Of a stretch of DNA of 49,785 nt, positions 10,384 through 37,977 are shown in pieces. Origin of the DNA: Terriglobia bacterium (GTDB taxonomy: Bacteria > Acidobacteriota > Terriglobia > Terriglobales > Acidobacteriaceae); the NCBI GenBank assembly GCA_032252755.1, contig JAVUPY010000016.1, forward strand, positions 1 through 49,785. The letters are read 5' to 3'. Position numbers and translations under genes: made by a program. How positions within the stretch are numbered: position 1 is the stretch's first letter; each line of letters starts with the position of its first letter. The notes below the pieces were generated by a model. That model did not search any database. It saw nothing but the letters and a program-made list of their open reading frames with translations, and was not told where the DNA came from.

Positions 10384-12384
10384 ATGGATGGAAACACCTT
10401 CTACTCTCACACGATCGATTCGAAATCACCCCTTGCTTCAATAGGTTTGTGGATCTGTTTACTTGTTCTCCCCGGGTGGTCTCAGAACAATGCGATTCAA
10501 ATTGGTTCGGCCGTCCAGGTGAGCAAAGCGCAGGAGAAGTACCTGATGCGGGAGGTGCTCGTTTCGGCGGACCCACAAAATCCAAACCATCTTCTCGGAT
10601 GCGGGATTGCCTACGACGAGTCGCGAAATCGCGAGTGGACGGTAGTCTACGTTTCCAAAGATGGAGGCAATAGCTGGAAGCCCACGTTGTCGACGGACAA
10701 CTTTGAAATGTCGGGAGACCCGGCCTGCGCGTTGGGAAGGGGCGGGCTCGCAACCCATATGGCTATGGCATTTGAGAAGTTTCCACCGGAGAACAACAAG
10801 TACGTTCTTCGAGTTTATCGTTCGACCGATGGCGGCGAGACTTGGCCCTCGTACACCGATTTGCCGATGAAATTTCAGGGTATCGATCGAGAGTCTGTGA
10901 CGATCGATACGAGCGAGAGTAAGTACAAGAATCAGATTTATGTTTCCGGAACGACTCACGTGCGCGATTTTGACGGCGGAACGAAGGGTGGCTTGGCAGT
11001 ATGGACCTCCGCCGATGGTGGCAAGAGCTTCCTCGGCCCAGCTAAGCGTGCAGACTCCGGCGAACACTACGTCCTTGATACAGGGAACAGTGCGGTGTTG
11101 TCGGACGGCACGCTCGTGACCGTTTTTGGGGACCTGAAGAAATCAGACGGACTATCGGTAGCCGAAAGCAAGCCGGGAGAGCCAAACGCAACTTTGCTCG
11201 CGGTTCGGACAACCGACGGTGGGGAGTCTTTATCGCAAGCCGTCAAAGTGGACGACTTCTATATGATCAATATCTGGAATCGGCGCGGGGAGCCACCCGC
11301 TCATTCCGGACCCATGCTCGCCGTCGACAGTACTAAAGGCCCATTCAAAGACCGCCTTTACGCCATTTGGTCCGACAATCGGGACGGGCGAGGGGCTATC
11401 CGCCTGTCATATTCAACCAGCAAGGGGAAGACGTGGTCGAAGTCCGTGGTGATCGATGACGTACCAGGCCCAGTTGTCGAGAACAGTGGGCCTGATAATT
11501 TTCAACCGACGGTTGCGGTCAACAAGGATGGAGTTGTGTTGGTCTGCTGGTATGACCGGCGCGACAATCCCGACGGCCTGAGTTGGTACGTTCGAGCAAG
11601 AGCTTCACTCGACGGTGGTGAAACATGGTTACCGAGCGTGCGTGTATCTACGGAGCCAAATGTGTTTTCCGCGTCAACGAAGATGTTCGTGTGGGCCAAT
11701 GCAGAACAGCCAAAAGCCGTGTCAACGTGGAAAGACGACGACAGCAGTTCTTCCGATGCTTCCATTCCAAAGCCGGTTGAAGGCAATCCTGCGCGGATGA
11801 CTGTAGCCTTTAGTCCACGCCAGTTCTTCGCCGGTGACTATGCCGGGTTGACGGCAGATGCGGCTGGTACTTTCCACGCTTTCTGGATTGATAACCGAAC
11901 CGGGTTGCCGCAGATATGGACAGCTCCAATCCGGGTGTTCGGAAAAGCCGTGATGAACGGGGACCCCTCTCTTTCCGCCTTCAAAGATGTTTCCAGCGAT
12001 GTGCGGATAAAAATTGTTGGAAACAGCTATGACCGTGTCTCAAACACACTCACGATTGCTGTTCAGCTTGAGAACAATTCGAAGGAAGTGATTCGGGGAC
12101 CGATAAAGCTGCGGCTCGTCAGTTTAAGCTCACCCCTGGGGAACCCGTCTGTGGCGAACGCCGACAACGATATTTCCAATCCGGGTGCGGTCTGGGACTT
12201 TACACCGACATTGAAGAACAATGAGCTTCAAGAAAAGGAAGACTCGGCTACCAAAGACCTCATCTTCAAGGTGGATCATCCCCTCCCGCTCTTGGATAAC
12301 GGGCTGGTCCGACCGGATCTAATTGTTGGAGACATCCGCGTATTGGCCTCGGGATCACAAGTGAATAAGGGAGAGAGACCGTAG
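10384..12384 (+). CDS. Secreted BNR/Asp-box six-bladed propeller protein 1
   Basis: An exported protein of about 666 residues with a signal peptide (core LASIGLWICLLVLPG) and six Asp-box motifs, among them SKDGGNSWKP, STDGGETWPS, SADGGKSFLG, TTDGGESLSQ and SLDGGETWLP. This is the sialidase-type six-bladed beta-propeller. The last blade has FHAFWIDNRTGLPQIWTA, shared with the protein encoded at 36019. After the propeller comes a separate beta-rich domain of about 125 residues with NADNDISNPGAVWDF. The Asp-box fold is common to sialidases and many non-enzymatic proteins. I see no clear sialidase catalytic set, so enzyme activity should not be assumed. Start choice is uncertain: ATG 10384 places the hydrophobic core best, but 10303 and 10330 are possible and none has a good ribosome site. 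Confidence 0.8.
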   Translation: MDGNTFYSHTIDSKSPLASIGLWICLLVLPGWSQNNAIQIGSAVQVSKAQEKYLMREVLVSADPQNPNHLLGCGIAYDESRNREWTVVYVSKDGGNSWKPTLSTDNFEMSGDPACALGRGGLATHMAMAFEKFPPENNKYVLRVYRSTDGGETWPSYTDLPMKFQGIDRESVTIDTSESKYKNQIYVSGTTHVRDFDGGTKGGLAVWTSADGGKSFLGPAKRADSGEHYVLDTGNSAVLSDGTLVTVFGDLKKSDGLSVAESKPGEPNATLLAVRTTDGGESLSQAVKVDDFYMINIWNRRGEPPAHSGPMLAVDSTKGPFKDRLYAIWSDNRDGRGAIRLSYSTSKGKTWSKSVVIDDVPGPVVENSGPDNFQPTVAVNKDGVVLVCWYDRRDNPDGLSWYVRARASLDGGETWLPSVRVSTEPNVFSASTKMFVWANAEQPKAVSTWKDDDSSSSDASIPKPVEGNPARMTVAFSPRQFFAGDYAGLTADAAGTFHAFWIDNRTGLPQIWTAPIRVFGKAVMNGDPSLSAFKDVSSDVRIKIVGNSYDRVSNTLTIAVQLENNSKEVIRGPIKLRLVSLSSPLGNPSVANADNDISNPGAVWDFTPTLKNNELQEKEDSATKDLIFKVDHPLPLLDNGLVRPDLIVGDIRVLASGSQVNKGERP

Positions 12385-12421
12385 GAGCAAAATAGGGGAC
12401 AAATCCCTCCCCGGCTCGCGC

Positions 12422-12465: not shown

Positions 12466-12655
12466 TACATTTTCACTTCGGGGGCAACTCTTCATCTTCG
12501 CCTTGGTGAAGGTGCTGCGAGCATGCGGCTCAATTCCAGAAATCCTCGAAACAGCATAGGACAGACGTCCAAAAACTCATCTGGTACAGCGCAGCAGAAC
12601 GGCGGGCAAACCTTCTTGTGGCGCTTCTTCTGACAGGCAAACAAAAGAAAGGTGA

Positions 12656-14614
12656 ATGATGAGACATTTCCACTCCCTGTGGTTGGCCTGCATTTTTGTA
12701 AGCATAGCGGGTTTGACGTTTACGCGGAATTCGCAGGCTGCTGAGCAGCACCTCATTGCCAAGTACCACCTCGATGAGGGGAGCGGGGCCTCCATCGCTG
12801 ATTCGTCCGGGAACAAGCACGACGGCTTCATTGTGGGCAATGTGAGCTGGACACAAGGAATACACGGTAAAGCCATCGTGCTGGATGGCTTGGATCGTCT
12901 TCAAGTGCCCGCCTCCGTGGCCTTCAATATCGGAAATCAGGTCTCCGTCTCTGCCTGGATACGAGGCCACGCGAGCAAATTCCGCATGGTCGGGCTTCCC
13001 TCAACCTACTCTTCGTTGCGGGGGCCCTATTTTCAGGTATGCGGAGACACCATCTATTTCACCGCGAATTCCGATCATGCCTCCGCTGACAATCCAACTC
13101 TTTCGCAGGATCCGGTTCTGAAGAAACTTCCAGCGTTTCCCTGGAACGACTGGCACCTCTGGACCGGAACCACAGATATCAACTTGACGCACTACCATGA
13201 CACACGCAGGACCTTCTCGCCCCATACCGCAGTAGAGCCCAAACTCCAGGTAGCGGGTAAACGGATCTACTACGAGTACTTCGGCGAGGACGAAAACCAC
13301 GCGTGGCAAATTTATACCGCGCAATCCAATCTTGATGGTTCCGGCTGGAAGTCCACCCAGCGCACTTTCGAACCGGATGGTTACAGGACCGAGCAGGAAG
13401 GCAATCTGCAAGTCGCAGGCAAGCGCGTGTACAACGCTTGGCCGGAGAAAGATGGAAAGGGTGATTGGCAGTTATGGACTTCAATCTCAAATCTGGATGG
13501 TTCCCATTTTAAGCCCACTAAACGGACAGTAAATGGAGGATGGATTCCCAACCTGCAGGTGGTTGGAAATCAAGTGTTTTATATGTATCCCACCATTCGC
13601 GAATTGGCCAGGAAGAAGTTCGCGGGCACTTCCGATGAAGATCAATATTTTGCTGTTTCCGATCGAGATGGTAATCACTGGCGGGTCATTCACGCCATCA
13701 ACCACATTGCATATATGCCTAGTGGTTGGGGTTCGTTCCAGGTGCACGACGGAAAAATCTACTTCGAATACAGCCAGGACATCGGCGAACGTGGGGGCTA
13801 TCTGTTCACAGGCTCGATGGACCTGGACGGCGGTAATTTCCACTCCATCCAAAGAACCAGTGGCGATGACCTGGCAGGCCCCACCTTTAACAGCATTCAG
13901 ATACTGGGCAACAAAGTCTATTACACCTATAACCTGAGGCACACCTCGAACACCATCTCGGAGCTGGCCAAAGAGGCCATGGGGATGACGAACCTTGGCC
14001 GCGAAGGACTGCAAATCTGGACGGCCGAGTCCAATCTTGATGGATCCGGTTGGAAAGCTACCCAACGAACCGATGGTTCCAAGGACATTGTTGCGGGATA
14101 CCGCGGAATCGAACTGGTTGGCGGAAAACTCTATTTGGCGGCGATGGAGTTCCCACATTTTCGCGAAGACCCGGTGCGCATGTATCCCATGATGGCGACC
14201 GCCGGAGCGAACATCGTGAGCAAAGGCAGCGCTTTCGGAATTGGCCTAACGGAAAACAATGAGGCGCGGGCCTTTGTAAACGGCGGTCTTGATTACCTGG
14301 CTACTGCACAAGCACCCACCAGTACGGGAGGGGCAACCGCCGATTTCGCGGTTGACGGCGCCTGGCATTTCCTGACCATGACGTACGATGCCTCCATTTT
14401 GAAGTTGTACGTTGACGGTCGGCTTAGAACCTCAGCGCCCTATAAAGAGAAAGTCATCACGAACCCATTCCCCCTGATCATTGGAGATGGGTTCCAAGGC
14501 GAAATTGACGAGGTTTCTGTTTACGACCGTGCTTTGAGCGCCAGCCAAGTGCGAGACCGATACGAGAAATTCCGTCAGGGTTCAACGGCAGGAAATGCCC
14601 CAGTCAGCCACTGA
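12656..14614 (+). CDS. Secreted LamG protein with an inserted six-repeat domain
   Basis: An exported protein of 652 residues (signal core WLACIFVSIAGLTF, cleavage near SQAAEQ). Residues of about 35-103 are the first half of a LamG/concanavalin-like domain (YHLDEGSGASIADSSGNKHD ... VSVSAWIRGH). Residues of about 518-640 are the second half (IVSKGSAFGIGL, WHFLTMTYDASILKLYVDG, GEIDEVSVYDRALSASQVRD). Between them lie about 410 residues of a different repeat, roughly six copies of a unit combining SNLDGSGWKSTQRT with LQVAGKRVYY, which looks like a beta-propeller. The start is a double ATG (12656, 12659) with AAAGGTGA close by; the second ATG has the better spacing. Function is not known; a carbohydrate- or protein-binding role is likely for LamG. 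Confidence 0.75.
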   Translation: MMRHFHSLWLACIFVSIAGLTFTRNSQAAEQHLIAKYHLDEGSGASIADSSGNKHDGFIVGNVSWTQGIHGKAIVLDGLDRLQVPASVAFNIGNQVSVSAWIRGHASKFRMVGLPSTYSSLRGPYFQVCGDTIYFTANSDHASADNPTLSQDPVLKKLPAFPWNDWHLWTGTTDINLTHYHDTRRTFSPHTAVEPKLQVAGKRIYYEYFGEDENHAWQIYTAQSNLDGSGWKSTQRTFEPDGYRTEQEGNLQVAGKRVYNAWPEKDGKGDWQLWTSISNLDGSHFKPTKRTVNGGWIPNLQVVGNQVFYMYPTIRELARKKFAGTSDEDQYFAVSDRDGNHWRVIHAINHIAYMPSGWGSFQVHDGKIYFEYSQDIGERGGYLFTGSMDLDGGNFHSIQRTSGDDLAGPTFNSIQILGNKVYYTYNLRHTSNTISELAKEAMGMTNLGREGLQIWTAESNLDGSGWKATQRTDGSKDIVAGYRGIELVGGKLYLAAMEFPHFREDPVRMYPMMATAGANIVSKGSAFGIGLTENNEARAFVNGGLDYLATAQAPTSTGGATADFAVDGAWHFLTMTYDASILKLYVDGRLRTSAPYKEKVITNPFPLIIGDGFQGEIDEVSVYDRALSASQVRDRYEKFRQGSTAGNAPVSH

Positions 14615-14706
14615 TTTCGGCGGCCTGGATCGTAGTGCAACTGATGAGTACGAGGCTGACTGGCTGGCAGCAATCTTCGTTATTTCAAGTCTGCGAGGGA
14701 ACTGAG

Positions 14707-15254
14707 ATGTCCCGAATCGTGGCAGTGTGTCTGCTGGCTTCCGTTGTTGCGATCGCAATCAACGCCAATGCGCAACCGCAGCATCGTTTCAGCGTCGATG
14801 ACCTCCTTAGGTTGGAGAGCGTAGGCGCTGCAAAGGTGGATCCTACTGGGCATTGGCTGGTATACGAGCGAGCGCCGCGTTATGACCAGCTTCCCGATTA
14901 CAGTGTCGGTCGAATCGGTACCTGGAACTCTACCGGGGGATGGCTGATGATCGTCGACCTGACCGCGGCAGAACCTTCTCCCAAGCTCCTGTTTAAACCC
15001 GATCCGAAGAAGATGTATTGGATCGACAGCTTCTCGCCTGACGGACAGTCGCTCGCGTTCTATGCGGCGGAAACAAAGAGGCTAAGTACCTTCGTTTCTG
15101 GGGCGAAGGGCACTCGCCGTCGAGTCCGGCCAATATCCGATACATGTGGCAGCAAATCTTCCAGTGGTATGCGAAATATCTTAACGAAGGACCACAAGCA
15201 ACAAGCGCAACCAGAGCGAAAGCGCCAGTTGCAAGGTCGCGCGCAGCAAACTAA
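14707..15254 (+). pseudogene. Remnant of a secreted S9 prolyl-oligopeptidase-type peptidase (internal deletion)
   Basis: The N-terminal part is intact: a signal peptide from ATG 14707 (MSRIVAVCLLASVVAIAINA) followed by a TolB/DPP4-like start (HRFSVDDLLRLESVGAAKVD, SFSPDGQSLAFYAAE). At about 15063-15080 the homology stops. In another frame the extreme C-terminus of an S9 peptidase appears (KEAKYLRFWGEGHSPSSPAN, then IRYMWQQIFQWYAKYL), ending at TAA 15252-15254. It contains the GEGH motif with the catalytic histidine. The middle of the protein, probably over 400 residues including the Ser and Asp, is missing, and the join shifts frame. In the N-terminal frame translation would run out of homology and stop near 15378. 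It shows the same peptidase class as three intact genes downstream. Confidence 0.8.
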
Positions 15255-15469
15255 CGATGAAATAGAGAAATGCGGGTTATTGGGGACAGGGAAGGCCTTG
15301 ACGACAAAGGCTGACGATTCATGTCCGAGAATTTCTTCCCTTGCGGTACAGATCCCTACTCCAAGGGGCAATCTCTAAAGACAACTCTTGGCTGGCAAAT
15401 TCGCATGGGTGATCCTCGCACGGTTGCTGCCGCCTGCCGTCGAGCGATTCGCCGCAATGGGGATCTCAC

Positions 15470-17314
15470 ATGACCATCCTGGAACGACGGTTTCTCTTTC
15501 TCGTGTTGTTTATGGCGCTGTGTCATGCAGGTTTTGGTCAGGACATCACGGTTGGCCCTTCAGTAACTGTTTCAGCAGATGCCCCCACCGATCCACACGG
15601 TGAGTCTTTCTACGCGATCAATCCCAAGAATTCCAACGATCAGATTGCAGCTTCGTGTCGCATCAGTGACGACGGCGCCGGGGTGAGCGGGTACGTAACA
15701 CACGATGGCGGGAAGACCTGGGGCCGGATTCCGTTGCCCAAGGACCTTTCACACGGTTGGGATGTAATCACGTACTTCGATGGCTCTGGCAATGCCTATT
15801 TCGCTGCAAACGACCGAAACGGCCTTTGGATAATCCGATCGTCGGATGCCGGCCGAACGTGGTCTGACGAGACACTGCTCCAGGGGATAAAAGGTTTCGA
15901 TCGACAACAGATGGCGTTCGATCGTGGCGGAAGATACGCCGGGAGGATCTACGCGGGAGCAACCGGAACATCCGTTGGCCTCGACGGAAAAGACAGAGGT
16001 GTTCAGGCAATCGCATTCTCTAACGATGGAGGAAAGACATACAGCCAGCCGCGACTGATCACCGGTTCCGATAAGGAACAGATGTTCGCGATGTCGAACA
16101 TCCTGGTCGGTCCGGATGGAACGGTCATTGTGCCCTTCTGGACTTTCGAGGAACTTCCTTCGGACATGCCGACGTTATTTGATGGAAACGCACCGGACCG
16201 GGAAATCCGCAATCGTCGATACTTGCGCGTCGCGATCTCGGGTGATGGCGGGAACACATACTCCGTCACCAATCCGGTTTTCCAGACGAGTTGGGTATTT
16301 CGAACAAACGCCGGTTTCAAACTCGACAAAATCCAGGGTAATGGCTTCGCCGCGGTGGACCTCTCACAAGGACCGTTTCGCGGGCGCGTGTACGTGGTGT
16401 GGGTAGAGACTGCCGGGGATCGTCACGACATTCGGGTAATCCACTCGTCCGACGACGGCCGGACCTGGTCGAAACCGGTTTCGGTTCCGGATGATCACGG
16501 GCCTGTCGACGACGCGAATCCGACGATTGCCGTCAACGACCGCGGCATCGTCGGGGTTACATGGAATGACCGTCGTGCTCACAAGGACGCTTGTTATGAG
16601 TTGTATTTTTCCGCTTCCCTCGATGGCGGCGAAACGTTTTTGCCGAATGTGACGACGGGAAGGAAGCCGACCTGTCCACTGGCTCCCGGTAATTGGAAGC
16701 CCAGCGCCGGGATCAGTGCCTATCCGAAAACGGATGCTGGCGTGTCGGTCGAAGGACAAGGACTCAATGTCCTGATGATATCGACGCGATTTCCGGGTGG
16801 CGGCGATACACAAGGCCTCGATGCAGATTCCAACGGTGTCTTTCATGCTGGTTGGATCGATGGATCTTCCGGCGTAATGCAAATTGCGGAGACATCATTT
16901 TCTGTCGCCGGCGATGTTCACCAACCTGTAGCGCAGAAGAGGGATGTCAGCATCCAGGTGAAACTCGTTGCAAAGAACTGCGGATTTGACTGGAAGTCCG
17001 ACAATTTCACCTGTCGCATGCACCTCGAGAACAAATCGCCTTTGCCTGTTACTGGACCTTTCTCGGTGGAACTGCAGACTGTTCGGGTCAATTTGAAGGA
17101 CTTCCAGGCTGACAATGCCGACAACCACCAGGGGGCGGTAGGGGCAGCGTGGGACTTCGGGTCCGAACAGTTGAAACCCGGGGAGGCTTCGCAAGAGCGC
17201 GAATTTGTTTGGCATTTCAGCGGCATTCCGACCGAGCCGGAATACCCCTTCATGATGTTCAAAGTAGTCAGCGACACGACTGACAACAATGAACGAGCTG
17301 CGAACGCGAAATAA
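15470..17314 (+). CDS. Secreted BNR/Asp-box propeller protein 2
   Basis: A 614-residue exported protein (signal core FLFLVLFMALCHAGFG). Six Asp boxes mark a six-bladed propeller: THDGGKTWGR, SSDAGRTWSD, SNDGGKTYSQ, SGDGGNTYSV, SSDDGRTWSK and SLDGGETFLP. The last blade has FHAGWIDGSSGVMQIAET. The C-terminal domain carries NADNHQGAVGAAWDF, the same signature as in the other three paralogues. ATG at 15470 directly precedes the signal peptide. BNR gene 3 starts only 18 bases after its stop, so the two are probably in one operon with the peptidase genes that follow. It is often annotated as exo-alpha-sialidase, but substrate and activity cannot be read from the sequence. Confidence 0.82.
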   Translation: MTILERRFLFLVLFMALCHAGFGQDITVGPSVTVSADAPTDPHGESFYAINPKNSNDQIAASCRISDDGAGVSGYVTHDGGKTWGRIPLPKDLSHGWDVITYFDGSGNAYFAANDRNGLWIIRSSDAGRTWSDETLLQGIKGFDRQQMAFDRGGRYAGRIYAGATGTSVGLDGKDRGVQAIAFSNDGGKTYSQPRLITGSDKEQMFAMSNILVGPDGTVIVPFWTFEELPSDMPTLFDGNAPDREIRNRRYLRVAISGDGGNTYSVTNPVFQTSWVFRTNAGFKLDKIQGNGFAAVDLSQGPFRGRVYVVWVETAGDRHDIRVIHSSDDGRTWSKPVSVPDDHGPVDDANPTIAVNDRGIVGVTWNDRRAHKDACYELYFSASLDGGETFLPNVTTGRKPTCPLAPGNWKPSAGISAYPKTDAGVSVEGQGLNVLMISTRFPGGGDTQGLDADSNGVFHAGWIDGSSGVMQIAETSFSVAGDVHQPVAQKRDVSIQVKLVAKNCGFDWKSDNFTCRMHLENKSPLPVTGPFSVELQTVRVNLKDFQADNADNHQGAVGAAWDFGSEQLKPGEASQEREFVWHFSGIPTEPEYPFMMFKVVSDTTDNNERAANAK

Positions 17315-17332
17315 GCGGGAAGTACGGGAGGC

Positions 17333-19246
17333 ATGGTGAAGAAACTTCGCTTCGGCCAATGTTCAGTGCTGGTACTGATTCTCAGCTTCTTGGGCGGCAA
17401 TTTGTGCTTTGCGGGCGACACTAACTCGCGAACAGCACCGGTGATTACTGTCGGTCCAAACATGCTGGTCAGCCGGGACGGAGACTTCCCACATATGGAA
17501 CTTTCCGTTGCCTCGAACCCGCTTTCGGCGAAGAACCTGGTTGGTGGCGCGATCACGACCGAGCGCGATGAAGGCGGATTTGCGTGCAAGGCTTACGCAT
17601 CAGCCGACGGCGGAAGCACGTGGGTGGCGTCCGCGTTTCCGGAGGAAATCGAGTGGGGCGGCGGCGATCCACAGGTCGGATTCGGCTTGCACGGGACTGC
17701 TTATTTCAGTGCCCTGGCATTTGTGAAGGACGACAACGGCAACATGCGGGGCGGCCTCTTTTTCTATCGCTCGGAAGACGGCGGAAAGACATGGGGAAAA
17801 GCTGCCAATCTCGGATATTCCTACGATCACGAAGTTCTCGCGGTGGATCACACGGTGGGACGCTACGCCGGGCGTGTCTACCTGTCGGTGCTGTATGGGT
17901 ACCCCGTATATAGGCTGGGAGTCTTTCGTTCGGATGACGATGGCCGTACCTTCACCGGTCGGGTTCAGGCAGCGAGTGGAAAAGGAATTGTCGGCATTAA
18001 TACCGTCGGAAACATCCTGCTGCTGAGCGATGGCACGCTCGTCCTTCCCTATGATGATTTCCAATTCGATCCCGCGAAGAGGAAAACATCGCATTCCGGC
18101 AACATTTGGCTGGTGACATCGTCGGATGGGGCCGTGACATTTTCAGAGCCTCTTAAAGTAGGCACACAGGAGTTTCAGCCGGACAGGAACGCTCCGAGTT
18201 TGCAGACTTTCGCTGCAGCTGCAGTGGATCGGTCCGAAAAATACAAAGACCGGATCTATGTAGCTTGGACCGATTATCGCGAAGGCGCTTATCGCGTCGT
18301 GTTCACGTATTCGGCCGATCGAGGAAAGACCTGGTCCATGCCCAAAGTGGTTGTAAATGACGGACCAACGTGGTCGAGCCAATATCAACCGGAGATAGCA
18401 GTTAGCAAGCAGGGAGTTGTAGGTCTCACGTGGTTTGATACCCGGAATTCCACGTCCCACGACGACAAACAATATGACCAGTATTTCGCGGCATCTCTGG
18501 ATGGCGGCGAGTCTTTTTCGGCCCCGGTTCGCGTATCGGACAAAACGTCGTTGCGTCTCGGCAAAGGTAACCTGACCATGCAGCCGATGTTCTCGGAGTC
18601 GGCGCTGTACAAGGGCGGCCCCGAAACAAGAGTTTCCTTTATTTCAGGAGTGTCGCGCTGGCCTGCCGGCGGCGACTACATGGGGTTGGACGTCGACAAC
18701 AACGGCGTTTTCCATCCCTTCTGGGCGGACGCCAGGACAGGCACGTATCAGATTCAGACGGCGACTGTCAGGGTCATGACACCGGAAGAGAGCCAAAAAG
18801 GCGGGCTGACAAACACTTCCTTGGCAGAATCTGGCAACGCGGGCGAGCGGACAGCACAAGCAACTCCGACGTCTCTCTATGGAAAAGTCGAACTCGTGTT
18901 CGATGCTACGTCGTTTGATCCGGCCACAGGAGTGTTAAACGTTCCTACAAGACTTCGCAACGTTTCGTCGCGGCCAATTCATGCGCCGATTTCGCTCGAA
19001 GTTGAGAAGTTTGGCAGCGGACTTAATGACAGCCTGAAAGAATTCGCGCCAACAATTTTGAATTCAGATAACGGCAAGCCAGGAGACGGCGCGGTGTTCG
19101 ACTACTCAAATGTCCTGGGAACAGAGAAGGTTCTCCAACCAGGAGCCCTGTCTGGTCAAGTGGTGTGGCACCTCAAGGTGAAGGATCCACTGCGGATTCC
19201 GGATCTCCATATTTCATTTTCAGGTGTGATCCCGGACACGAAGTGA
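17333..19246 (+). CDS. Secreted BNR/Asp-box propeller protein 3
   Basis: A 637-residue exported protein with signal core VLVLILSFLGGNLCFAG. Asp boxes are SADGGSTWVA, SEDGGKTWGK, SDDDGRTFTG, SSDGAVTFSE, SADRGKTWSM and SLDGGESFSA. The last blade has FHPFWADARTGTYQIQTA. The C-terminal beta-rich domain is the same type as in its neighbours, with LNSDNGKPGDGAVFDY in place of the usual GA-WDF. GGGAGG-like bases precede ATG 17333. It lies 18 bases after BNR gene 2 and 45 bases before the subtilase gene. As with its paralogues, the fold is clear and the biochemical role is not. Confidence 0.82.
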   Translation: MVKKLRFGQCSVLVLILSFLGGNLCFAGDTNSRTAPVITVGPNMLVSRDGDFPHMELSVASNPLSAKNLVGGAITTERDEGGFACKAYASADGGSTWVASAFPEEIEWGGGDPQVGFGLHGTAYFSALAFVKDDNGNMRGGLFFYRSEDGGKTWGKAANLGYSYDHEVLAVDHTVGRYAGRVYLSVLYGYPVYRLGVFRSDDDGRTFTGRVQAASGKGIVGINTVGNILLLSDGTLVLPYDDFQFDPAKRKTSHSGNIWLVTSSDGAVTFSEPLKVGTQEFQPDRNAPSLQTFAAAAVDRSEKYKDRIYVAWTDYREGAYRVVFTYSADRGKTWSMPKVVVNDGPTWSSQYQPEIAVSKQGVVGLTWFDTRNSTSHDDKQYDQYFAASLDGGESFSAPVRVSDKTSLRLGKGNLTMQPMFSESALYKGGPETRVSFISGVSRWPAGGDYMGLDVDNNGVFHPFWADARTGTYQIQTATVRVMTPEESQKGGLTNTSLAESGNAGERTAQATPTSLYGKVELVFDATSFDPATGVLNVPTRLRNVSSRPIHAPISLEVEKFGSGLNDSLKEFAPTILNSDNGKPGDGAVFDYSNVLGTEKVLQPGALSGQVVWHLKVKDPLRIPDLHISFSGVIPDTK

Positions 19247-19291
19247 GCGGATTGCGCGGTTATTAACTGCCAAGCATTGTAAGGGGGTGAG

Positions 19292-22567: not shown

Positions 22568-22650
22568 CTGTTCGGCTCTTGAACGTCGGCGGGCGAATGA
22601 CCAACGCGCGTTCGTCGCGCTGATGTGACGAATGCTGTTTCGAGGTAGCG

Positions 22651-24937: not shown

Positions 24938-25078
24938 ATGATTCGATCAAGCCGTACTCGTGCTTTGGCTATTGTTTCGCTTCTCACAATGGTCTTCTCC
25001 ATTCTTGGCGTCGCATTGAATACTCCGTTGTCGCCGAGCGAACAGCATGAGTCCGGCGACTCGAGCAAAGTTAAGTAG
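24938..25078 (+). CDS. Tiny single-span membrane or signal-peptide protein (46 aa)
   Basis: A short frame of 46 residues that would be missed by most length cut-offs. It begins at ATG 24938 after GAGGGAAACG, a good ribosome site. It has a basic start (MIRSSRTRA), one hydrophobic stretch (LAIVSLLTMVFSILGVAL) and a polar tail (SPSEQHESGDSSKVK). It could be a single-span membrane protein or a secreted peptide. It lies between two S9 peptidase genes on the same strand with 16- and 18-base gaps. I do not recognise a family. Confidence 0.5.
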   Translation: MIRSSRTRALAIVSLLTMVFSILGVALNTPLSPSEQHESGDSSKVK

Positions 25079-25096
25079 CTTGATCCTGAGGACAAA

Positions 25097-25315: not shown

Positions 25316-25336
25316 CCTTACCGGGAGATTATCCGA

Positions 25337-30186: not shown

Positions 30187-30338
30187 TTTTCTCGACTTAT
30201 TAAGAGTCGCAGGGTGGGGACTGTAGGCCAAGCGGCGGCGGGAACGCCAGAGTGAAATCAGCGGCAATCGCGAGTATGCCCGCCAATACGTGTCTCTGTA
30301 CCAGTGAAGAAAAATAAATAATAAGGCAAGAATCTGGA

Positions 30339-30409: not shown

Positions 30410-31093
30410 ATGTTCAACAAAAAATCCAACGAGAGCCTCGAGCCTTGCGGTTTGGGAATTTCCCAGCTACGGAACCTCTCGGACGAAACAATAATGGCAC
30501 ATCTGAAGCAGGGGCACGATGATGCGCTAGCAGTCCTGTTCGAGCGCTATCACCGTCTGGTCTTCAGCATAGCCGTCAAGATCTTGCACGACGAAGGGGA
30601 GGCCGAGGACGTTACGCAGAACGTCTTCCTGGAAGTTTTCCGAAATGCGGTACAGTTTGATCCGCAGAAGGGCAGTACTAAGGCATGGTTGCTGCAATAT
30701 GCCTATCACCGTAGCTTCAACCGGTTGCGGTACCTGAAAGTTCGGGGCCTGCAACGCGATTTTGACGTTGCGACCGAACTCGAGCGCCAGGTCGAAGATG
30801 CATTTCTAGTTGCCACGAAGACCTTGGACACTGTGGACCGCGCCCGAATGGTGCGCCAGGCGTTCCGGGTTTTAACGGGTGCCCAGAGTAATACTCTGAA
30901 GTTGGCTTTTTTTGAAGGACTGTCCCTGAAAGAGATTAGTGAACGTACGGGAGAGCCTTTAGGGAATGTGCGTCATCATTACTATCGGGGCCTAGATCGG
31001 ATGCGAAGCCATCTTGAAAGCCGGACAGCGGATGAAAGTGTAGCGGGACAAGTAGCCGGCGCAACTGACAGCGTTCGAACCGGGAGTCTTTGA
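30410..31093 (+). CDS. ECF-type RNA polymerase sigma factor
   Basis: A 227-residue sigma-70 family protein with only regions 2 and 4. Region 2 spans about residues 38-105 (FERYHRLVFSIAVKIL, EAEDVTQNVFLEVFR, STKAWLLQYAYHRSFNRLR). Region 4 spans about 147-204 (LKLAFFEGLSLKEISERTGE, then GNVRHHYYRGLDRMR). The stop overlaps the ATG of the anti-sigma gene by one base (TGATG), a classic coupled pair. The neighbours are the peptidase run upstream and the TonB receptor downstream, so these are its most likely regulon. The ATG at 30410 has AAGGGA eight bases upstream. Confidence 0.92.
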   Translation: MFNKKSNESLEPCGLGISQLRNLSDETIMAHLKQGHDDALAVLFERYHRLVFSIAVKILHDEGEAEDVTQNVFLEVFRNAVQFDPQKGSTKAWLLQYAYHRSFNRLRYLKVRGLQRDFDVATELERQVEDAFLVATKTLDTVDRARMVRQAFRVLTGAQSNTLKLAFFEGLSLKEISERTGEPLGNVRHHYYRGLDRMRSHLESRTADESVAGQVAGATDSVRTGSL

Positions 31094-32334
31094 TGTGGAG
31101 CCATGATCGATTTGAGGAGCTTGCGGCGCTTGCCGCGGCGGGACAGATTACGGGTCGCGAACTCGAGGAGTTTCTGGACCATGTGGAGTACTGTGGTCAA
31201 TGCAAAGACGCATTTGCGTATTTTGTTCAGCTCCATGAACAAGGGTTACCGCTTGTAAACGGCCAAAAATCATTCTTCACAAAGACAACGCCCGTACCGT
31301 ATGGAATGACGGAGCGCTTCCTGTCCAGGGCTCGCGAAGAAGGAATTCGATTCTCCGAAGAACCCGATGCCCACCATTTTTATTCCACTTTCTCTCGGTT
31401 CTTCGCTTGGGGTAATTACCAAAAATTATTGGCGGGAGCCGCTCTGATTGGGCTTGTTGCCATTGGTATGCGCGAATATGAATCTCGCAAGCCCAAGGTC
31501 GTGGCGCAGATCGAGGCACCGGTTCAGATTGCGACTGTGCAGAAACCCGCGAATGAAACCGATCTCACAAATCAGATTCGAATCCTGACTGCCTCTAACC
31601 AGCGCATGCAGGATGAAGTCGCCCGACTGAAAAGAGAGCACGATCAGGACTCAGCAAACGTCGACGACCTCCAATCGAAGCTACGCAGCGCGCAATTGGC
31701 AAGCCAGAATTGGCAATCAGCCTTCAGTAAACATTTAGCCGACGAACAGGCTTCGCTCCGTCAGAAAGATGATCAACTGATCAGAGCGCAAGCGGAACTT
31801 CAGAACGCGCAGAACACCAGTGCGCGGAACGACGCGGACGTTATCGCTTTGCGCGCCAAGGTCCAGGATCTCACCGAGCAAGTGCGAGTAGAACACGAGG
31901 CGGCCGAACGTGAACGCGAACTTATTTCGGCAGACAGCGACATTCGCGATCTGATGGGAGCCCGCAATTTGCATATCGTCGACGTGATTGACGCTGACCC
32001 CAGTGGCAAACAGACGAGAGCATTCGGGCGAGTGTTCTACACTGAAGGCAAGTCGTTAATCTTTTATGCATATGATTTGAGCGAGGCCAAACTCAAAGAT
32101 GCCAGCTATTCGTTTCAGGTGTGGGGGCAAAGAGAATCTGGCTCGGTGAAGAAGCTGGGAGTGTTGTTCCAGGATGACCAACACCAGCGGCGATGGGTGC
32201 TGAAGGTCAACGACCCGGTTGTCCTCCATAACATCAGCAGTGTATTTGTCACAATCGGCCCACACGGGACGCAAGAACCCGAAGGTAAGGAACTGCTCTA
32301 CGCGTTCCTGGATATGAAGCCCAACCACCCGTAA
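31093..32334 (+). CDS. Membrane anti-sigma factor (ZAS-type zinc finger, coiled coil, RskA-like domain)
   Basis: A 413-residue anti-sigma factor. The N-terminus has the zinc-binding pattern H-x3-C-x2-C (FLDHVEYCGQCKDAF; His30, Cys34, Cys37), which holds the sigma factor. A membrane span (about 110-127, LLAGAALIGLVAIGM) is followed by a long coiled coil of about 120 residues (Asn/Gln/Leu heptads, about 150-275). The C-terminal domain, from about 285, resembles RskA/anti-sigma-K (GRVFYTEGKSLIFYAYDL, YSFQVWGQRESGSVKKLG). The coiled coil is an unusual spacer between span and sensor domain. ATG 31093 is chosen over TTG 31090 because of the TGATG overlap with the sigma gene. Signal release is probably by regulated proteolysis, as in this family. 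Confidence 0.85.
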   Translation: MWSHDRFEELAALAAAGQITGRELEEFLDHVEYCGQCKDAFAYFVQLHEQGLPLVNGQKSFFTKTTPVPYGMTERFLSRAREEGIRFSEEPDAHHFYSTFSRFFAWGNYQKLLAGAALIGLVAIGMREYESRKPKVVAQIEAPVQIATVQKPANETDLTNQIRILTASNQRMQDEVARLKREHDQDSANVDDLQSKLRSAQLASQNWQSAFSKHLADEQASLRQKDDQLIRAQAELQNAQNTSARNDADVIALRAKVQDLTEQVRVEHEAAERERELISADSDIRDLMGARNLHIVDVIDADPSGKQTRAFGRVFYTEGKSLIFYAYDLSEAKLKDASYSFQVWGQRESGSVKKLGVLFQDDQHQRRWVLKVNDPVVLHNISSVFVTIGPHGTQEPEGKELLYAFLDMKPNHP

Positions 32335-32571
32335 AGACGGTTGCAAGGTCTGCTCAGATTGCAGTCCGGGCAGAAAATAAAGTTCCAATTCATTGGTGAT
32401 TGGAGAATCGCCAGGAGTGTATATTTTCGGCTCATCACGTACGACTCGTCGACTTGAAGTTCCTCTGGCGTCGAGATTCCTGGGTCAACTTCTTCTTATC
32501 CAGAAAAATACCACTGTATTGGTACAGATGTTCTACGAACCGGGCACTCTCTCAAAAAGGAGTGAGCGATT

Positions 32572-35500
32572 ATGACCCTTCACCGTTGTCTCACCTCAAT
32601 CGTCGTCTTGCTGGCGATTCTATGTCTTGCGGTTGGCGCGCAGGCACAGACGGAACGAGCAACTCTCTCCGGTCGCGTTGTCGATCCGGCTGGAGCTGCG
32701 ATTCCCGGCGTCCGGGTTACTGTTATGAGCCTGGGAACCAGTGCCATCATTGAGGCAAAGACGAACAGTGAAGGTTTATTTATTGTTCCGAATCTTCGTC
32801 CGGGGCACTACCGCATCAAGGTGGAGAAAGAAGGTTTCAAGTCGCTTCTCCGACCCGACATCGAATTGCACGTACAGGACGTGATTGCGCTCAACTTCTC
32901 AATGAATATCGGCTCAAGAATTGAGACGGTCACCGTGAACGGCCAAGCTCCGCTGGTGAACAGCGAATCTGCAGCGGTCAGCACAGTTGTGGATAGGAAG
33001 TTCATCGATAGCCTTCCCTTAAACGGTCGCAGCTTCCAGTCCCTGCTACTGCTTACTCCCGGCGTGGTAATGCAGACCGTACAGAGTGGCAACCTCGGTC
33101 AATTCAGCGTGAACGGGCAGCGTGCTGATTCGAACTACGTTACGGTCGATGGCGTAAGTGCCAACTTCGGGATGAGCACCTCCTACATGATGTCTGAGTC
33201 ATTGGGTGGAGCAATTCCGGCGACCAACGTCTTGGGTGGGTATAACAGCCTCGCTTCGGCAGACGCGCTGCAGGAGTTCCGCGTGCAAACCTCGACCTAT
33301 GCCCCCGAGTACGGCCGGCAGCCCGGCGGCCAGGTCTCCATCGTCACACGCTCTGGTACGAATGAGTTTCATGGCACTCTCTTCGATTATTTGAGGAACG
33401 ACATCTTCGACGCACGCGATTACTTCAATACTCCGCCTGAAGCAAAACCAGCGCTGCGTCAGAACGATTTTGGCGGCGTGTTCGGTGGGCCGATCGTCAA
33501 GGACAAGGCATTCTTCTTCGTTTCGTACGAGGGACTGCGCCTGAGGAAGCCCAGCAACAGTACCTATTCGGTACCGAGTTTGGCGCTCCGAGCTTCGGCT
33601 CCGACAGATGTTCAGCCTATCTTGAACATGTTCCCGTTGCCGGCGCCTGGAGCACCCGTCAACCCTGACGGGTCGTCCAACGGAAGCGCATCCTGGTCGG
33701 ATCCCGGGACCGTGAATGCGTTTAGCGGTCGGGTCGATGTAAATTTGCGGAACAACCTGACATTGTTTGGGCGTTATAACTATTCACCTTCTGAAATCGA
33801 CGCTCGAGGTGGCGGCCCGAACGGCACATCGGCGCTGAGCGAAATCGATTCGAACCAGATGAAGATCCAAACTCTAACAGTAGGCTTGACATGGCTGATG
33901 AGCACAACGGCGGCCAATGACATTCGCGTCAATTACAGCCGCGACAAGGCGGATGGAATCAACTATCTCGATAACTTTGGTGGAGCTGTTGTACCGGATA
34001 GCTCGTATTTCTTTCCGTCGGGCAATGGGTACAGCCTGAAGAACGGCCAGTTTGCGCTCTGTGTCATCGCTGGTTGCGATTATGCCAATCGCCAGTTCTT
34101 CCAGGTTGGAAGAGGGAACAACAGCCTCAACCAGGAGTACAACATTGTTGACACACAGACGCTCACGAAAGGTACGCATAACCTTAAGTTCGGAGTCGAT
34201 CTTCGCCGCAACTCGATGTTCTTCTGGCCATTCTCGTATCTGAGCGAACCCCTTCCCCTTGATTTCAACTCTTTGGCCGCTGGCCAAGTACTCGAGTATC
34301 AGATTCTCCAATCCCTTCCGAGCTCCGTGCGCGATTTCAATATAGGAGCGTTCGCCCAGGACACTTGGAAGGCGACACAGCGTCTGACTTTAACTTATGG
34401 CGTGCGCTGGGATGTCGAGACTCCAATGATGCGCAATGGCGGACTTCCCCAGGTTACAGCTACCGGTTTGAATCAACCCGACCCCTCGCAAGTCACGTTC
34501 GAGCTAACAAAGGACCACCCGTATCCAACACAGTGGGCAAATTTCGGACCACGCATTGGGGTCGCCTACCAGTTGCTCGGTAGTCAGGGACACGAGATGG
34601 TGCTCCGCGGCGGCTACGGTATCTTCTATAACCTGATCGCCCAATCATCCGGCGAGTTGATCTACGGCTGGACCGGATATCCAATCTCTGCGAGCAAATT
34701 CGGATTCGGCACAACGTGGCCGTTTCCCTCGGATGTGGCCGCCCCACCACCTATCGCGTGGGATCCGACTAAGGGCGGGGAGATCTATAACCCGAACATG
34801 AAGCAACCGTACACTCATGAGTTCAACCTGGCTATCGATCAAGCACTCGGGAACAACAATTCTCTGAGTTTGACGTACGTCGGAGCTTTGGGTAGAAACC
34901 TGGCACTTCAGATAACAGCGTACGGACTCGGATCGAACCCAGGCAGCTACACCACAATCAGCGGTGTGAACTCGGGGCATTCCAGCTACAACGCCTTCCA
35001 GGCACAGTTCAAGCACCAGTCGAAGTCCTTGGAGGTTCTGGCGTCCTACAACTGGTCCCACTCGCTTGATAACGGTTCGCAGAACTCCTTCGGGTATGGC
35101 TCCGACAACGGTATTTACGGGCAAAACAATGCCGATATCAACTATGGTCCTTCAGTCTTTGATATGAGGCAGTCAGCTTCTGCGGCGATCACCTACAACA
35201 TCCCAACCCTAAGCGCAAACCGCTTCACGGAAGCACTCCTCGGCAATTGGTCGGTCGAGAACGTGTTCATGGCCCGCACAGCGCTTCCTTCCGATATTGG
35301 GGGTTCGATCTATGGATCGTTATTCGGAACGCAAGCTACTTTCTTTGAGCGTCCCGACCGAGTGCCCGGCGTTCCCATGTATCTGTACGGTTCACAATAT
35401 CCGGGTGGCAAGGCCGTCAATCTTGCTGCCTTCGCGGTTCCGCCGGCTGATCCCGTTCTTTCCGCGGGTGGCAGATACTTCCCGGCCCGGCAGGGGAATT

Positions 35501-35871
35501 TCGAGCGCTATGGTTTACGCAATTTCGGCGCCTGGCAATCGGACCTAGGAGTTCATCGGACATTCAAGGTAACCGAGCGGACGAACTTGCAGTTCCGTTT
35601 TGAGGCTTTCAACTTATTCAACCATCCGAACATGGGATTCTTCGGAGGGGGAAACAGCGGAACCCAGCAAGTCGCGCTCAATGTTATCCCGAATGGATCG
35701 GGTGGCTGGATGTTCACCCCCGGTTACGGACAGACGACTTCCGGTCCAAGTGCAGTCGTCGTGAACAAGACTTTGGCGGGTGCACTGCAGGGGGCCTACG
35801 GCGGCGTCAATCCGCTGTACTCCATCGGCGGCAATCGCTCGATGCAGATCGCACTCAAACTAACGTTCTGA
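32572..35871 (+). CDS. Oar-like TonB-dependent outer-membrane receptor
   Basis: A 1099-residue outer-membrane protein. The signal peptide is MTLHRCLTSIVVLLAILCLA. An N-terminal carboxypeptidase-regulatory-like domain (RATLSGRVVDPAGAAIPGVR, about 29-110) is followed by a plug domain (about 115-300, with LPLNGRSFQSLLLLTPGV and YVTVDGVSANFG) and a beta-barrel ending in ALKLTF, the usual aromatic C-terminus. This is the architecture of acidobacterial Oar-type receptors. It may import peptides or glycans released by the secreted enzymes encoded upstream, but no ligand can be named. AAAAAGGAGTGAGC precedes ATG 32572. The gap of 237 bases after the anti-sigma gene should contain its own promoter. 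Confidence 0.88.
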   Translation: MTLHRCLTSIVVLLAILCLAVGAQAQTERATLSGRVVDPAGAAIPGVRVTVMSLGTSAIIEAKTNSEGLFIVPNLRPGHYRIKVEKEGFKSLLRPDIELHVQDVIALNFSMNIGSRIETVTVNGQAPLVNSESAAVSTVVDRKFIDSLPLNGRSFQSLLLLTPGVVMQTVQSGNLGQFSVNGQRADSNYVTVDGVSANFGMSTSYMMSESLGGAIPATNVLGGYNSLASADALQEFRVQTSTYAPEYGRQPGGQVSIVTRSGTNEFHGTLFDYLRNDIFDARDYFNTPPEAKPALRQNDFGGVFGGPIVKDKAFFFVSYEGLRLRKPSNSTYSVPSLALRASAPTDVQPILNMFPLPAPGAPVNPDGSSNGSASWSDPGTVNAFSGRVDVNLRNNLTLFGRYNYSPSEIDARGGGPNGTSALSEIDSNQMKIQTLTVGLTWLMSTTAANDIRVNYSRDKADGINYLDNFGGAVVPDSSYFFPSGNGYSLKNGQFALCVIAGCDYANRQFFQVGRGNNSLNQEYNIVDTQTLTKGTHNLKFGVDLRRNSMFFWPFSYLSEPLPLDFNSLAAGQVLEYQILQSLPSSVRDFNIGAFAQDTWKATQRLTLTYGVRWDVETPMMRNGGLPQVTATGLNQPDPSQVTFELTKDHPYPTQWANFGPRIGVAYQLLGSQGHEMVLRGGYGIFYNLIAQSSGELIYGWTGYPISASKFGFGTTWPFPSDVAAPPPIAWDPTKGGEIYNPNMKQPYTHEFNLAIDQALGNNNSLSLTYVGALGRNLALQITAYGLGSNPGSYTTISGVNSGHSSYNAFQAQFKHQSKSLEVLASYNWSHSLDNGSQNSFGYGSDNGIYGQNNADINYGPSVFDMRQSASAAITYNIPTLSANRFTEALLGNWSVENVFMARTALPSDIGGSIYGSLFGTQATFFERPDRVPGVPMYLYGSQYPGGKAVNLAAFAVPPADPVLSAGGRYFPARQGNFERYGLRNFGAWQSDLGVHRTFKVTERTNLQFRFEAFNLFNHPNMGFFGGGNSGTQQVALNVIPNGSGGWMFTPGYGQTTSGPSAVVVNKTLAGALQGAYGGVNPLYSIGGNRSMQIALKLTF

Positions 35872-35920: not shown

Positions 35921-36018
35921 ATGGCGGGATGGCTTCTGCTTCCTCCTTTAACAACGGCAACTCACGTTCGCGCTGACCCAAACTCGGGCCGGAAAACTGA
36001 CTTGGAGGACATAGTGCA

Positions 36019-37977
36019 ATGCTGAGCCGAAAGCGCTACTTCGTCGCTATAATCACGTTACTAATCGCTAGCTTGGCCTTAGCCCAATCACCACGAATCA
36101 CAGTCGGCACGAACGTACAGGTGAGCGTTGCGAATGCAAAATTGGACCACGGTGAAGTGCTGGTCGCGGCCGACCCTGAAGATCCGAATAAACTCATTGG
36201 GTGTTCGATGATCTTTCCGGACCCTCTGACGCGCCGAATCTCCGATGGAATTACCTACGTATCGAGTGATGGAGGAGCGACTTGGGTCCAGACACTCTAT
36301 ATCGGTAGCGGTCCAATGGGATCGGGTGATCCAGCTTGCACATTTGGGCCGCACGGGAATGCCTACTCAGTGATTCTCCAACCCGCCGTGAAGCCGGAAA
36401 TGGACGATGTGCTGGTCTACCGCTCTCCTGACGGTGGAAAGACCTGGGAGAACCCTTCGCACATTGACTGGATCGACAGAGAATACGTGACCGCCGACAC
36501 AACCGGCGGAAAATATAGCGGGCGGCTTTATATCAATGGCACAGGATCTGCCGCACTCCTGGAGCATAATCTCGCTGACCCGGACTCGGGTGCGATGCAG
36601 ATAGGAATTTCCGTTCAGAGATCGCTGAATGGTGGCGTCTCGTTCAGGCCGCCTTATAAGAGATTTTCCGCGTCACCTCGCTGGGTATTGGGAATGGGCA
36701 ATGGTGTTGTTCTCTCGGACGGGACTTATGTCGCGGTGTTTGGCGAACAGAAAGATCGGACGAAACTCGGTAGGAAACCACCTTATCAGTCCGCCAATTC
36801 ATTGTTGAAGATGATCTCTTCTTCTGACGGCGGAGAGACCTATAGCACGGCCCGAACGATCAGCGATTGGTATATGGACTACGCGGACGTCCTGGGACCA
36901 TCGAGTGTTGTGCCTGTGATTGCAGTGGACAAGAGCCACGGTCCTTTCCGCGACAGGCTCTATGTCGTATGGCCTGATTTTCGCTCAGGACGAGGGAAAG
37001 TTCTGCTGAGCTATTCCTCTGACAAAGGCAAAACCTGGTCCAAGCCTCACGTTGTGAACGACGACCGAGCATGGCCGGCACCGGAGATTGGGCCCGATGA
37101 TGATATGCCGGTAGTCGACGTGAACAAGAATGGCGTGGTTGGAGTGATGTGGTATGACCGCCGCGATAATCCACACAATTACGGATGGTGGGTTCGGTTT
37201 GCCGTATCAGACGACGGCGGAGAAACCTTTGGTCCAAGTGTTCGCGTATCGAGCGCTCCCGCAACCGTCGCCTTTCAGAACGACATTAAGCTGCGGGGAA
37301 GCAGCACCGGAGGCGGCAAACCGGAGAGTCGCCAAAAGGGCGGCAACCTTCAAGCAAGAATCGGGTTCGGCACTCTGTTCTCTTTCAATGGTGGGCACAC
37401 GGCAGGGATGGCAGCCGACGCCGCCGGCAAATTCCATCCGTTTTGGATCGACAATCGCACTGGCATAGAACAGATTTGGACTGCGGCAGTTACCGTGGAT
37501 GGTTCAGCAGTTGTGAATGGTGCCCCTCAACTTGCGCGACTTGCCGATGTAACCGACGATGTGACGCTCGATTTTAAGGATGCTAAGTACGATAGGCAGA
37601 CTGGTGAACTCTCGGTCGATGCTTACTTGGGGAACACTTCAGACAAAGCCCTGAAACCCCCGCTGTACATTCGAGTACTTTCACTCGATTCGAAGATCGG
37701 CGCCCCAACCATCAAAAATGCTTCGAACAATCAGACTCGGGAAGGGGCCGTTTGGGATTTCAGTTCAGAATTGCCGAACAAGAACAGCGGATTGCCGCCA
37801 GGGAAGGTCTGCTCTCCGAAGCGCCTGGTGTTTCATCTTGCCGATGTTCACTGGGGCGACGATCCACCGTCTATCTCCAATCTCGATGACTTCCTGACAT
37901 TTGAAGGCAAAGCCCTTGCCCCGGAGACAAACTCAGGTAAGAGCAGTTCGGATGCCGCGGTTGGGACTTCACGATAA
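36019..37977 (+). CDS. Secreted BNR/Asp-box propeller protein 4
   Basis: A 652-residue exported protein (signal core VAIITLLIASLALA). Six Asp boxes are seen: SSDGGATWVQ, SPDGGKTWEN, SLNGGVSFRP, SSDGGETYST, SSDKGKTWSK and SDDGGETFGP. The last blade FHPFWIDNRTGIEQIWTA is nearly identical to that of propeller protein 1, as is the start of both mature proteins (KLDHGEVLVAADPEDPNKLI against KYLMREVLVSADPQNPNHLL), so these two are the closest pair. The C-terminal domain carries NASNNQTREGAVWDF. GGAGGAC lies upstream of ATG 36019. It stands alone after the receptor gene terminator but belongs to the same paralogue family. Confidence 0.82.
   Translation: MLSRKRYFVAIITLLIASLALAQSPRITVGTNVQVSVANAKLDHGEVLVAADPEDPNKLIGCSMIFPDPLTRRISDGITYVSSDGGATWVQTLYIGSGPMGSGDPACTFGPHGNAYSVILQPAVKPEMDDVLVYRSPDGGKTWENPSHIDWIDREYVTADTTGGKYSGRLYINGTGSAALLEHNLADPDSGAMQIGISVQRSLNGGVSFRPPYKRFSASPRWVLGMGNGVVLSDGTYVAVFGEQKDRTKLGRKPPYQSANSLLKMISSSDGGETYSTARTISDWYMDYADVLGPSSVVPVIAVDKSHGPFRDRLYVVWPDFRSGRGKVLLSYSSDKGKTWSKPHVVNDDRAWPAPEIGPDDDMPVVDVNKNGVVGVMWYDRRDNPHNYGWWVRFAVSDDGGETFGPSVRVSSAPATVAFQNDIKLRGSSTGGGKPESRQKGGNLQARIGFGTLFSFNGGHTAGMAADAAGKFHPFWIDNRTGIEQIWTAAVTVDGSAVVNGAPQLARLADVTDDVTLDFKDAKYDRQTGELSVDAYLGNTSDKALKPPLYIRVLSLDSKIGAPTIKNASNNQTREGAVWDFSSELPNKNSGLPPGKVCSPKRLVFHLADVHWGDDPPSISNLDDFLTFEGKALAPETNSGKSSSDAAVGTSR

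Follow-up and report, generated by a model that had tools for sequence, protein, structure and literature searches.

Introduction

For lasso-peptide clusters of the isopeptidase type (astexin, sphingopyxin, benenodin), an arrangement of sigma factor, anti-sigma factor, TonB receptor and isopeptidase has been described, and the function of isopeptidase-containing lasso peptides is termed enigmatic in a review (PMC9266682). On an Asticcacaulis plasmid, genes for a sigma factor, FecR, a TonB receptor and an AtxE2-family isopeptidase run convergent with the lasso genes C (cyclase) and B2 (PF13471 protease). Here we analyse a stretch of 49,785 nucleotides from a Terriglobia bacterium (contig JAVUPY010000016.1 of assembly GCA_032252755.1), hereafter the window. 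It contains a 27-kb locus of this soil acidobacterium in which an outer-membrane transporter is encoded together with secreted propeller proteins and peptidases, all on the plus strand. We place the locus with the sigma/TonB/isopeptidase type of arrangement, as an orphan in the window. Since lasso-peptide genes adjoin many of its relatives, it is possibly a receiver-only form of a system for the uptake and cutting of knotted peptides. Our leading interpretation, to which we give slightly less than an even chance, is that an acidobacterial module for peptide reception is present here in an expanded and orphan form (no producer genes were found); a lasso peptide is a plausible ligand.

The initial annotation of this DNA, which was aware of no described system with this composition, was only partly right, because the sigma/anti-sigma/TonB-receptor/isopeptidase order is already described for lasso clusters, in the review (PMC9266682) and by the Asticcacaulis plasmid. 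Acidobacterial sister modules (L069, L067) even show the same gene order and convergence as the Asticcacaulis layout. The differences are nevertheless substantial. In the acidobacterial module the anti-sigma factor is an RskA_C-like coiled-coil protein and not FecR, the receptor is of the Oar type, and the isopeptidase position may also hold a BNR, a LamG-propeller or a canonical S9 protein, while the window has no lasso B2 or C.

Bacteroidetes SusCD loci also place a sigma/anti-sigma-regulated TonB receptor beside hydrolases. The sigma switch next to receptor and hydrolases is a shared trait, but neither SusD nor STN was matched in the Pfam-scanned open reading frames (ORFs) of the window, and the marks of FecI-FecR TonB signalling, STN and FecR, had no match either (Pfam, E 0.01). 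The combination of an Oar-type receptor and a subtilisin-like protease is reminiscent of Myxococcus, in which Oar is required to secrete PopC; the available text on that system describes no sigma pair or propeller, and reports PopC to be without a signal peptide (PMC6434023). A sigma/Oar module beside acidobacterial lasso genes was not described in the consulted text of the following open-access papers (PMC9266682, PMC13352647, PMC6434023, PMC10368454, PMC9064862, PMC11006600, PMC11520301, PMC3174227, PMC9318849, PMC7074687, PMC11220033), and an earlier description elsewhere is possible.

A conserved acidobacterial module

The core of the locus consists of four genes, which follow each other on one strand in the order of the module (ECF, anti-sigma, Oar, slot 4; slot 4 is the gene after Oar):

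30410-31093, plus strand: extracytoplasmic function (ECF) sigma factor (Sigma70_r2 2.8e-15, r4_2 6e-9; 54% and 59% to its two best relatives)
31090-32334, plus strand: anti-sigma factor with HxxxCxxC, transmembrane segment, coiled coil and RskA_C-like outer domain ending in NHP (RskA_C weak, 0.0066)
32572-35871, plus strand: Oar-type TonB-dependent receptor (OMP_b-brl_4 5e-141, CarboxypepD_reg, Plug)
36019-37977, plus strand: BNR4, slot-4 propeller with a C-terminal beta domain (BNR 9.4e-9; structure model with predicted local distance difference test, pLDDT, of 77.2 and predicted template modelling score of 0.81)

Window ORFs were assigned by Pfam scan, which agrees with the initial annotation on four BNR proteins, a LamG protein, an S8 and three S9 peptidases, the ECF factor and Oar, all on the plus strand. 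The ECF/anti-sigma pair stands as well: the anti-sigma factor is only weakly matched in Pfam, but its HxxxCxxC motif is conserved, and so is its place next to the ECF gene. Across 18 aligned sequences, which exclude the more distant L014, H31/C35/C38 and N412/H413/P414 are invariant, and the outer domain is strongly conserved up to its terminal NHP.

Among 61 whole genomes, 40 had ECF matches, many of them distant ECFs. Twenty stretches were fetched, 19 of them around distinct ECF genes, and ECF, anti-sigma and Oar occurred together in 16 of the 19; the gene after Oar was a BNR in four of these and an S9 in eight. A second set was collected with the anti-sigma profile (best 80 of 139 loci, 78 distinct, several from one genome). 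All were titled Acidobacteriota, with L046 (Acidimicrobiia) as sole exception. For 81 anti-sigma genes, ECF was found at 72, Oar at 70, and both, ECF upstream and Oar downstream, at 64.

Window-like Oars were present in 47 loci, 43 of which had a next gene: S9 in 31, BNR in five, the LamG-propeller homologue in one, another same-strand gene in five and an opposite-strand gene in one. The five others include L052, an S9 by Pfam, and L083, a TPR-redoxin protein; our S9 profile misses S9s of the oligopeptidase type (L052, L118). With L052 counted, slot 4 is an S9, BNR or LamG-propeller in 38/43. In three more distant modules that were scanned, slot 4 is taken by an FG-GAP propeller in L103, by an SBBP propeller in L026 and by a phosphodiesterase in L085.

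The window's own genome served as a control. Besides the window's receptor it encodes 38 Oar genes longer than 700 residues, 36 with a next gene. A same-strand S9 or BNR follows none of these 36 at E 1e-8 and two at loose cut-offs (an oligopeptidase-type S9 at L118, whose Oar is of the core subfamily, and a weakly BNR-like gene of 20 bits at L122); the loose cut-offs also bring up an opposite-strand BNR-like gene (L137) and an S9 further on (L112). The three sigma-linked Oars, in contrast, all have an S9 or BNR in slot 4, the two on contigs C43 and C64, which carry the genome's other ECF-anti-sigma-Oar modules, being followed by an S9. At 5326-14195 of L118 (own-genome contig C15), a core-type Oar without a sigma pair precedes the oligopeptidase-type S9, and a BNR homologue lies one gene on.

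We call a module lasso-linked if B2 or C lies within 10 kb. Most loci cover less than 7 kb after Oar, and the absence of lasso genes refers to that stretch only. On a fast tree of the Oars, whose branches are long, the Oar of the window groups with that of L118 (support 97). The two stand beside, not inside, a 20-row clade, 15 rows of which are lasso-linked. Slot 4 is interchangeable, as the tree implies nine replacements between BNR and S9.

The locus is real and coherent, and its core is a conserved acidobacterial module. The co-occurrence that the initial annotation proposed to search for holds for ECF, anti-sigma, Oar and BNR/S9, which recur together in Acidobacteria, but not for S8, which has no counterpart among the compared loci; the LamG protein recurs once.

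S9a resembles lasso isopeptidases

Three S9 genes precede the core:

22651-24921, plus strand: S9a, AtxE2-family-like isopeptidase/peptidase
25337-27709, plus strand: S9b, peptidase with canonical triad
27706-30186, plus strand: S9c, peptidase (Peptidase_S9 1.8e-9) with an RRxFxK twin-arginine-translocation (Tat)-like N-terminus, a motif read directly

The best structure matches of S9a are 5jrk (E=1.4e-41) and AtxE2 (4.1e-37). We take 5jrk to be SpI-IsoP, the sphingopyxin isopeptidase, although its database record names only a peptidase-like protein. A profile of 13 slot-4 S9s plus S9a gave the same picture (AtxE2 2e-70, 5jrk 2.7e-41, next S9 2.5e-23), as did a single slot-4 S9, that of L069 (AtxE2 1.5e-27, 5jrk 3.8e-24). 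The Ser-Glu-His triad of S9a (S570, E659, H681) aligns with the module S9s and with 5jrk, and the C-terminal signature DPxPxKxxQYxRW is a further likeness to AtxE2 and SpI-IsoP. By sequence comparison, S9a is evidently kin to the lasso isopeptidases.

Among the compared loci, S9a, S9b and the LamG protein each have their closest relative in slot 4 of a lasso-linked module. S9a is 39% identical over 322 residues to the slot-4 S9 of C43, S9b 57% over 788 residues to that of L034, and the LamG protein 42% over 644 residues to the slot-4 gene of L042, which carries lasso B2 and C.

Propeller proteins and the remaining genes

The upstream part of the locus is occupied by propeller genes and a subtilase:

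10384-12384, plus strand: BNR1, secreted propeller protein (BNR_2 7.4e-10; 40% to BNR4; start inferred from the promoter position)
12656-14614, plus strand: LamG-propeller gene (Laminin_G_3 1.2e-19)
14635-15378, plus strand: probable S9 remnant (PD40 0.0041, under cut-off; no match to a catalytic domain)
15470-17314, plus strand: BNR2 (BNR_2 1.2e-10)
17333-19246, plus strand: BNR3 (BNR_2 4.6e-12)
19292-22567, plus strand: S8 subtilase with PPC domain (Pfam 2.2e-13)

For BNR1, a start at 10384 is likelier than one at 10303, because the sigma site ends 37 bases before 10384. The segment that the initial annotation called a dead S9 is a probable remnant, yet its only trace is a sub-threshold PD40 match, so that it is unproven, and BLAST found no match for it among the ORFs of the compared loci. 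The claim that the genes from 15470 to 30186 are at most about 83 bases apart was wrong, as S9a and S9b are separated by 415 bases. The nearest solved relative of the S8 protein is tripeptidyl-peptidase 2, and its D, H and S align with those of 3lxu.

The four BNRs are paralogues with 28-40% mutual identity. BNR4 homologues (E up to 1e-20) are rare: ten genes in 5/61 genomes, four of them in the window. Of the six others, four occupy slot 4, one is near the core-type Oar of C15 and its S9, and one lies beside an S9 (G037). The fold of the BNR4 model (pLDDT 77) matches the CylK propeller at a Z score of 31.7, PLL lectins at about 28-29 and sialidases at about 25, in a whole-model query that hardly probes the C-terminal domain. 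Only one arginine, R313, is invariant among the ten aligned BNRs; we therefore think that BNR4 binds rather than cuts, and sialidase (GH33) catalysis seems unlikely.

The LamG domain is apparently split by an inserted propeller of about seven repeats. Pfam places its C-terminal half at 518-632; the N-terminal half (about 34-105) and the seven propeller-like repeats that separate the two halves were read by eye. The structure model is poor (pLDDT 47.9, two sequences), and the split is therefore argued from sequence only. The protein was found in one of the 61 genomes.

A promoter nearly exclusive to the locus

In front of Oar, 65/81 regions carry a two-box motif, TTGGTACAAAT followed about 17 bases on by CGTA. 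With a matrix fitted on the same regions, 83% of the 78 scannable regions scored above the 95th percentile of shuffled sequences on the coding strand, versus 13% on the other strand. A second matrix was built from 64 sites, leaving out the window. Its top five hits over both strands of the window were 10318 (score 20.6), 32518 (19.2), 30305 on the minus strand (18.7), 15342 (14.9) and 12580 (14.3), which precede BNR1, Oar, ECF (divergent), BNR2 and LamG, respectively; 5121 (14.2) and 21417 on the minus strand (14.1) came next. Shuffled windows reached a mean best score of 14.9 per strand and 19.4 as the highest in 20. Because shuffles also score near 14-15, the sites before BNR2 and LamG rest on their position and the shared GGGCA.

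With this shared half, the pattern GGTACA-N15-GGGCA has eight matches in the 5.39-Mb genome, six of them in the locus, where 0.02 exact matches would be expected in the window; the reversed pattern has one match in the genome. The GGGCA half was picked after the window sites had been seen, which is not true of the window-free matrix. The six window matches are:

10321-10346, plus strand: sigma promoter site before BNR1 (pattern and matrix)
12583-12608, plus strand: sigma promoter site before the LamG-propeller gene (pattern and matrix)
15345-15370, plus strand: sigma promoter site before BNR2, inside the S9 remnant (pattern and matrix)
30277-30302, minus strand: divergent sigma promoter site upstream of the ECF gene (pattern and matrix)
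30649-30674, plus strand: match inside the ECF coding region (pattern)
32521-32546, plus strand: sigma promoter site before Oar-BNR4 (pattern and matrix)

Of the two outside sites, one (L134 5465) is on C29, 59 bases ahead of a further Oar gene. The initial annotation had suggested a motif search before 15470, 32572 and 36019; sites were found before the first two and none before 36019, the start of BNR4, where read-through from Oar is possible. That the promoter marks the locus near-exclusively, and that the module has a private switch, is well supported.

The divergent promoter copy upstream of ECF recurs in 31/80 loci, independently of the strand of the upstream gene. Two candidate explanations for it were rejected: a small gene behind the divergent promoter had no consistent ORF in the loci bearing the anchor motif, and a tie to a divergent upstream gene was contradicted by 14 divergent versus 14 same-strand cases. 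In ten loci (L030 and nine others) a conserved AAGACTGAGTC element lies about 160-240 bases before ECF; a scan of four of these loci against Rfam gave no match for it.

Link to lasso peptides and alternative readings

Lasso linkage was counted over 82 deduplicated Oar-bearing modules including the window, excluding seven duplicate loci and the loci without Oar. B2 or C lies within 10 kb of 28/82, including both other modules of the own genome. Here B2 occurs only on C43 and C64, 8-10 kb from their anti-sigma genes, and the C64 module is adjoined by C, S9, kinase, PqqD and ABC genes. By slot 4, 25/37 modules with an S9, 2/10 with a BNR, 1/25 with another gene (the LamG homologue) and 0/10 with no gene after Oar are lasso-linked. 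Restricted to loci with at least 4.4 kb after Oar, the contrast is 24/34 for S9 versus 2/10 for BNR (Fisher p=0.008, optimistic because loci share ancestry).

We propose that the Oar receptor would import a modified peptide, knotted or otherwise, whose source would be either other producers or the bacterium's own lasso clusters. Propeller proteins would take it over in the periplasm: the BNR and LamG-propeller proteins may bind it, S9a may open or cut it, and S9b, S9c and S8 may degrade it. Through its outer domain, the anti-sigma factor would sense the ligand or its transport, upon which the ECF factor would be released and, via GGTACA-N15-GGGCA, switch on BNR1, the genes from LamG and BNR2 to S9c, Oar-BNR4 and one further Oar gene.

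Several observations weigh against this peptide-reception interpretation. The S8 protease is not accounted for. The window is not a lasso biosynthetic cluster, as the whole-genome PF13471 search found no B2 on its contig and the B2/C profiles had no match among its ORFs. Lasso genes are likewise missing from the stretches covered of all eight window-like BNR modules, the window included. The 61 genomes hold 20 modules (13 genomes) and 17 B2 genes over cut-off (14 genomes), yet only seven genomes have both, six have the module alone and seven B2 alone, and only 4/20 modules are within 11 kb of B2 on the same contig. With the AtxE2-family model NF033523 of NCBIfam, S9a scores 311 bits, below the cut-off of 400 and above all five lasso-linked slot-4 S9s that we scored (four at 145-216, one at 282). 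S9b (147) and S9c (20) are under the cut-off too, and S9b is undecided between this model and the dipeptidyl-peptidase Dpp5 (139, also below cut-off). Two lasso-free modules, L008 and L100, have S9s with slightly higher scores on Dpp5 than on the lasso model (218 versus 215 for the S9 after the BNR in L008). Finally, the nucleophile motif of S9a is GISYGG, versus GFSRT in many slot-4 relatives. We are slightly less confident in view of the Dpp5 scores and of those genomes in which B2 occurs without the module.

The alternative that survives best is the one favored by the initial annotation, general protein or glycoprotein utilisation. S8 and S9 would digest protein outside the cell or in the periplasm, BNR and LamG would bind glycans, Oar would import oligopeptides under control of the ECF factor, and lasso clusters would have co-opted the module later. 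The slight Dpp5 preference in L008 and L100 fits this scenario, as do the presence of S8 next to S9b and S9c, the nearness of the BNR4 model to lectin and sialidase propellers, and the BNR modules without lasso genes, which are also found in genomes without B2. Furthermore, the modules that branch off first in the Oar tree show no lasso genes over the stretch covered. Yet S9a matches the lasso isopeptidases best, the relatives of S9b and LamG are in lasso-linked modules, S8 is outside the conserved module, and the single invariant arginine of the BNRs speaks against sialidase activity. We regard utilisation as a real but doubtful possibility, and not as the best lead, given where the closest relatives of S9a, S9b and LamG are located.

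Export is improbable. Oar would here secrete the slot-4 propeller proteins or S8, for which there is the precedent of PopC in the available text (PMC6434023), a protease of the right kind in the locus, and the position of slot-4 genes directly after Oar. However, PopC is reported there to lack a signal peptide, whereas the window proteins start with signal-peptide-like or Tat-like N-termini (read by eye). The alpha-proteobacterial counterparts pair the TonB receptor with an isopeptidase, and the nine changes between BNR and S9 would be odd for a cognate cargo. That unrelated genes for secreted proteins came to lie next to a sigma/receptor pair by chance, as an Oar-rich genome and the lack of a conserved partner position for S8 and S9c might suggest, is very hard to reconcile with the conserved module and with a promoter that the ECF gene shares with four genes or operons.

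Genes flanking the locus

Just before the locus, a tRNA-Glu(CTC) lies at 9966-10040, where the GC content drops from about 0.58 to 0.54. A search of the window for copies of the tRNA end gave none of at least 12 bases other than the tRNA itself. Further upstream (2288-9002), genes for a RecA-like protein, an ImuB-like protein (IMS) and DNA polymerase III alpha follow in a row, an arrangement that resembles the imuA-imuB-dnaE2 SOS mutagenesis cassette. Downstream, the formate dehydrogenase alpha subunit (39496-42666) has an in-frame TGA at codon 194 (V-TGA-HGPT) followed by a predicted hairpin. This codon likely encodes selenocysteine, and a match to tRNA-Sec over cut-off was obtained elsewhere in the analysis of the genome.

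Implications of the proposed peptide reception in Acidobacteria

Returning to peptide reception, a more specific version of it would have the locus eavesdrop or feed on knotted peptides of its neighbours, lasso or other. It would be a receiver-only locus with receptor, private switch and several catalytic S9 propellers, in which the non-catalytic BNR and split-LamG propellers are peptide-binding partners interchangeable with the isopeptidase. We consider this version unlikely, though worth stating. If true, the receiver-only locus would be a non-enzymatic solution to the isopeptidase slot. The acidobacterial branch, in which this slot is swapped and copies exist without producer genes, lets one test whether such modules serve peptides in general or their own lasso peptide, and with the near-exclusive promoter, assays for the regulon and for its inducer are simple to set up.

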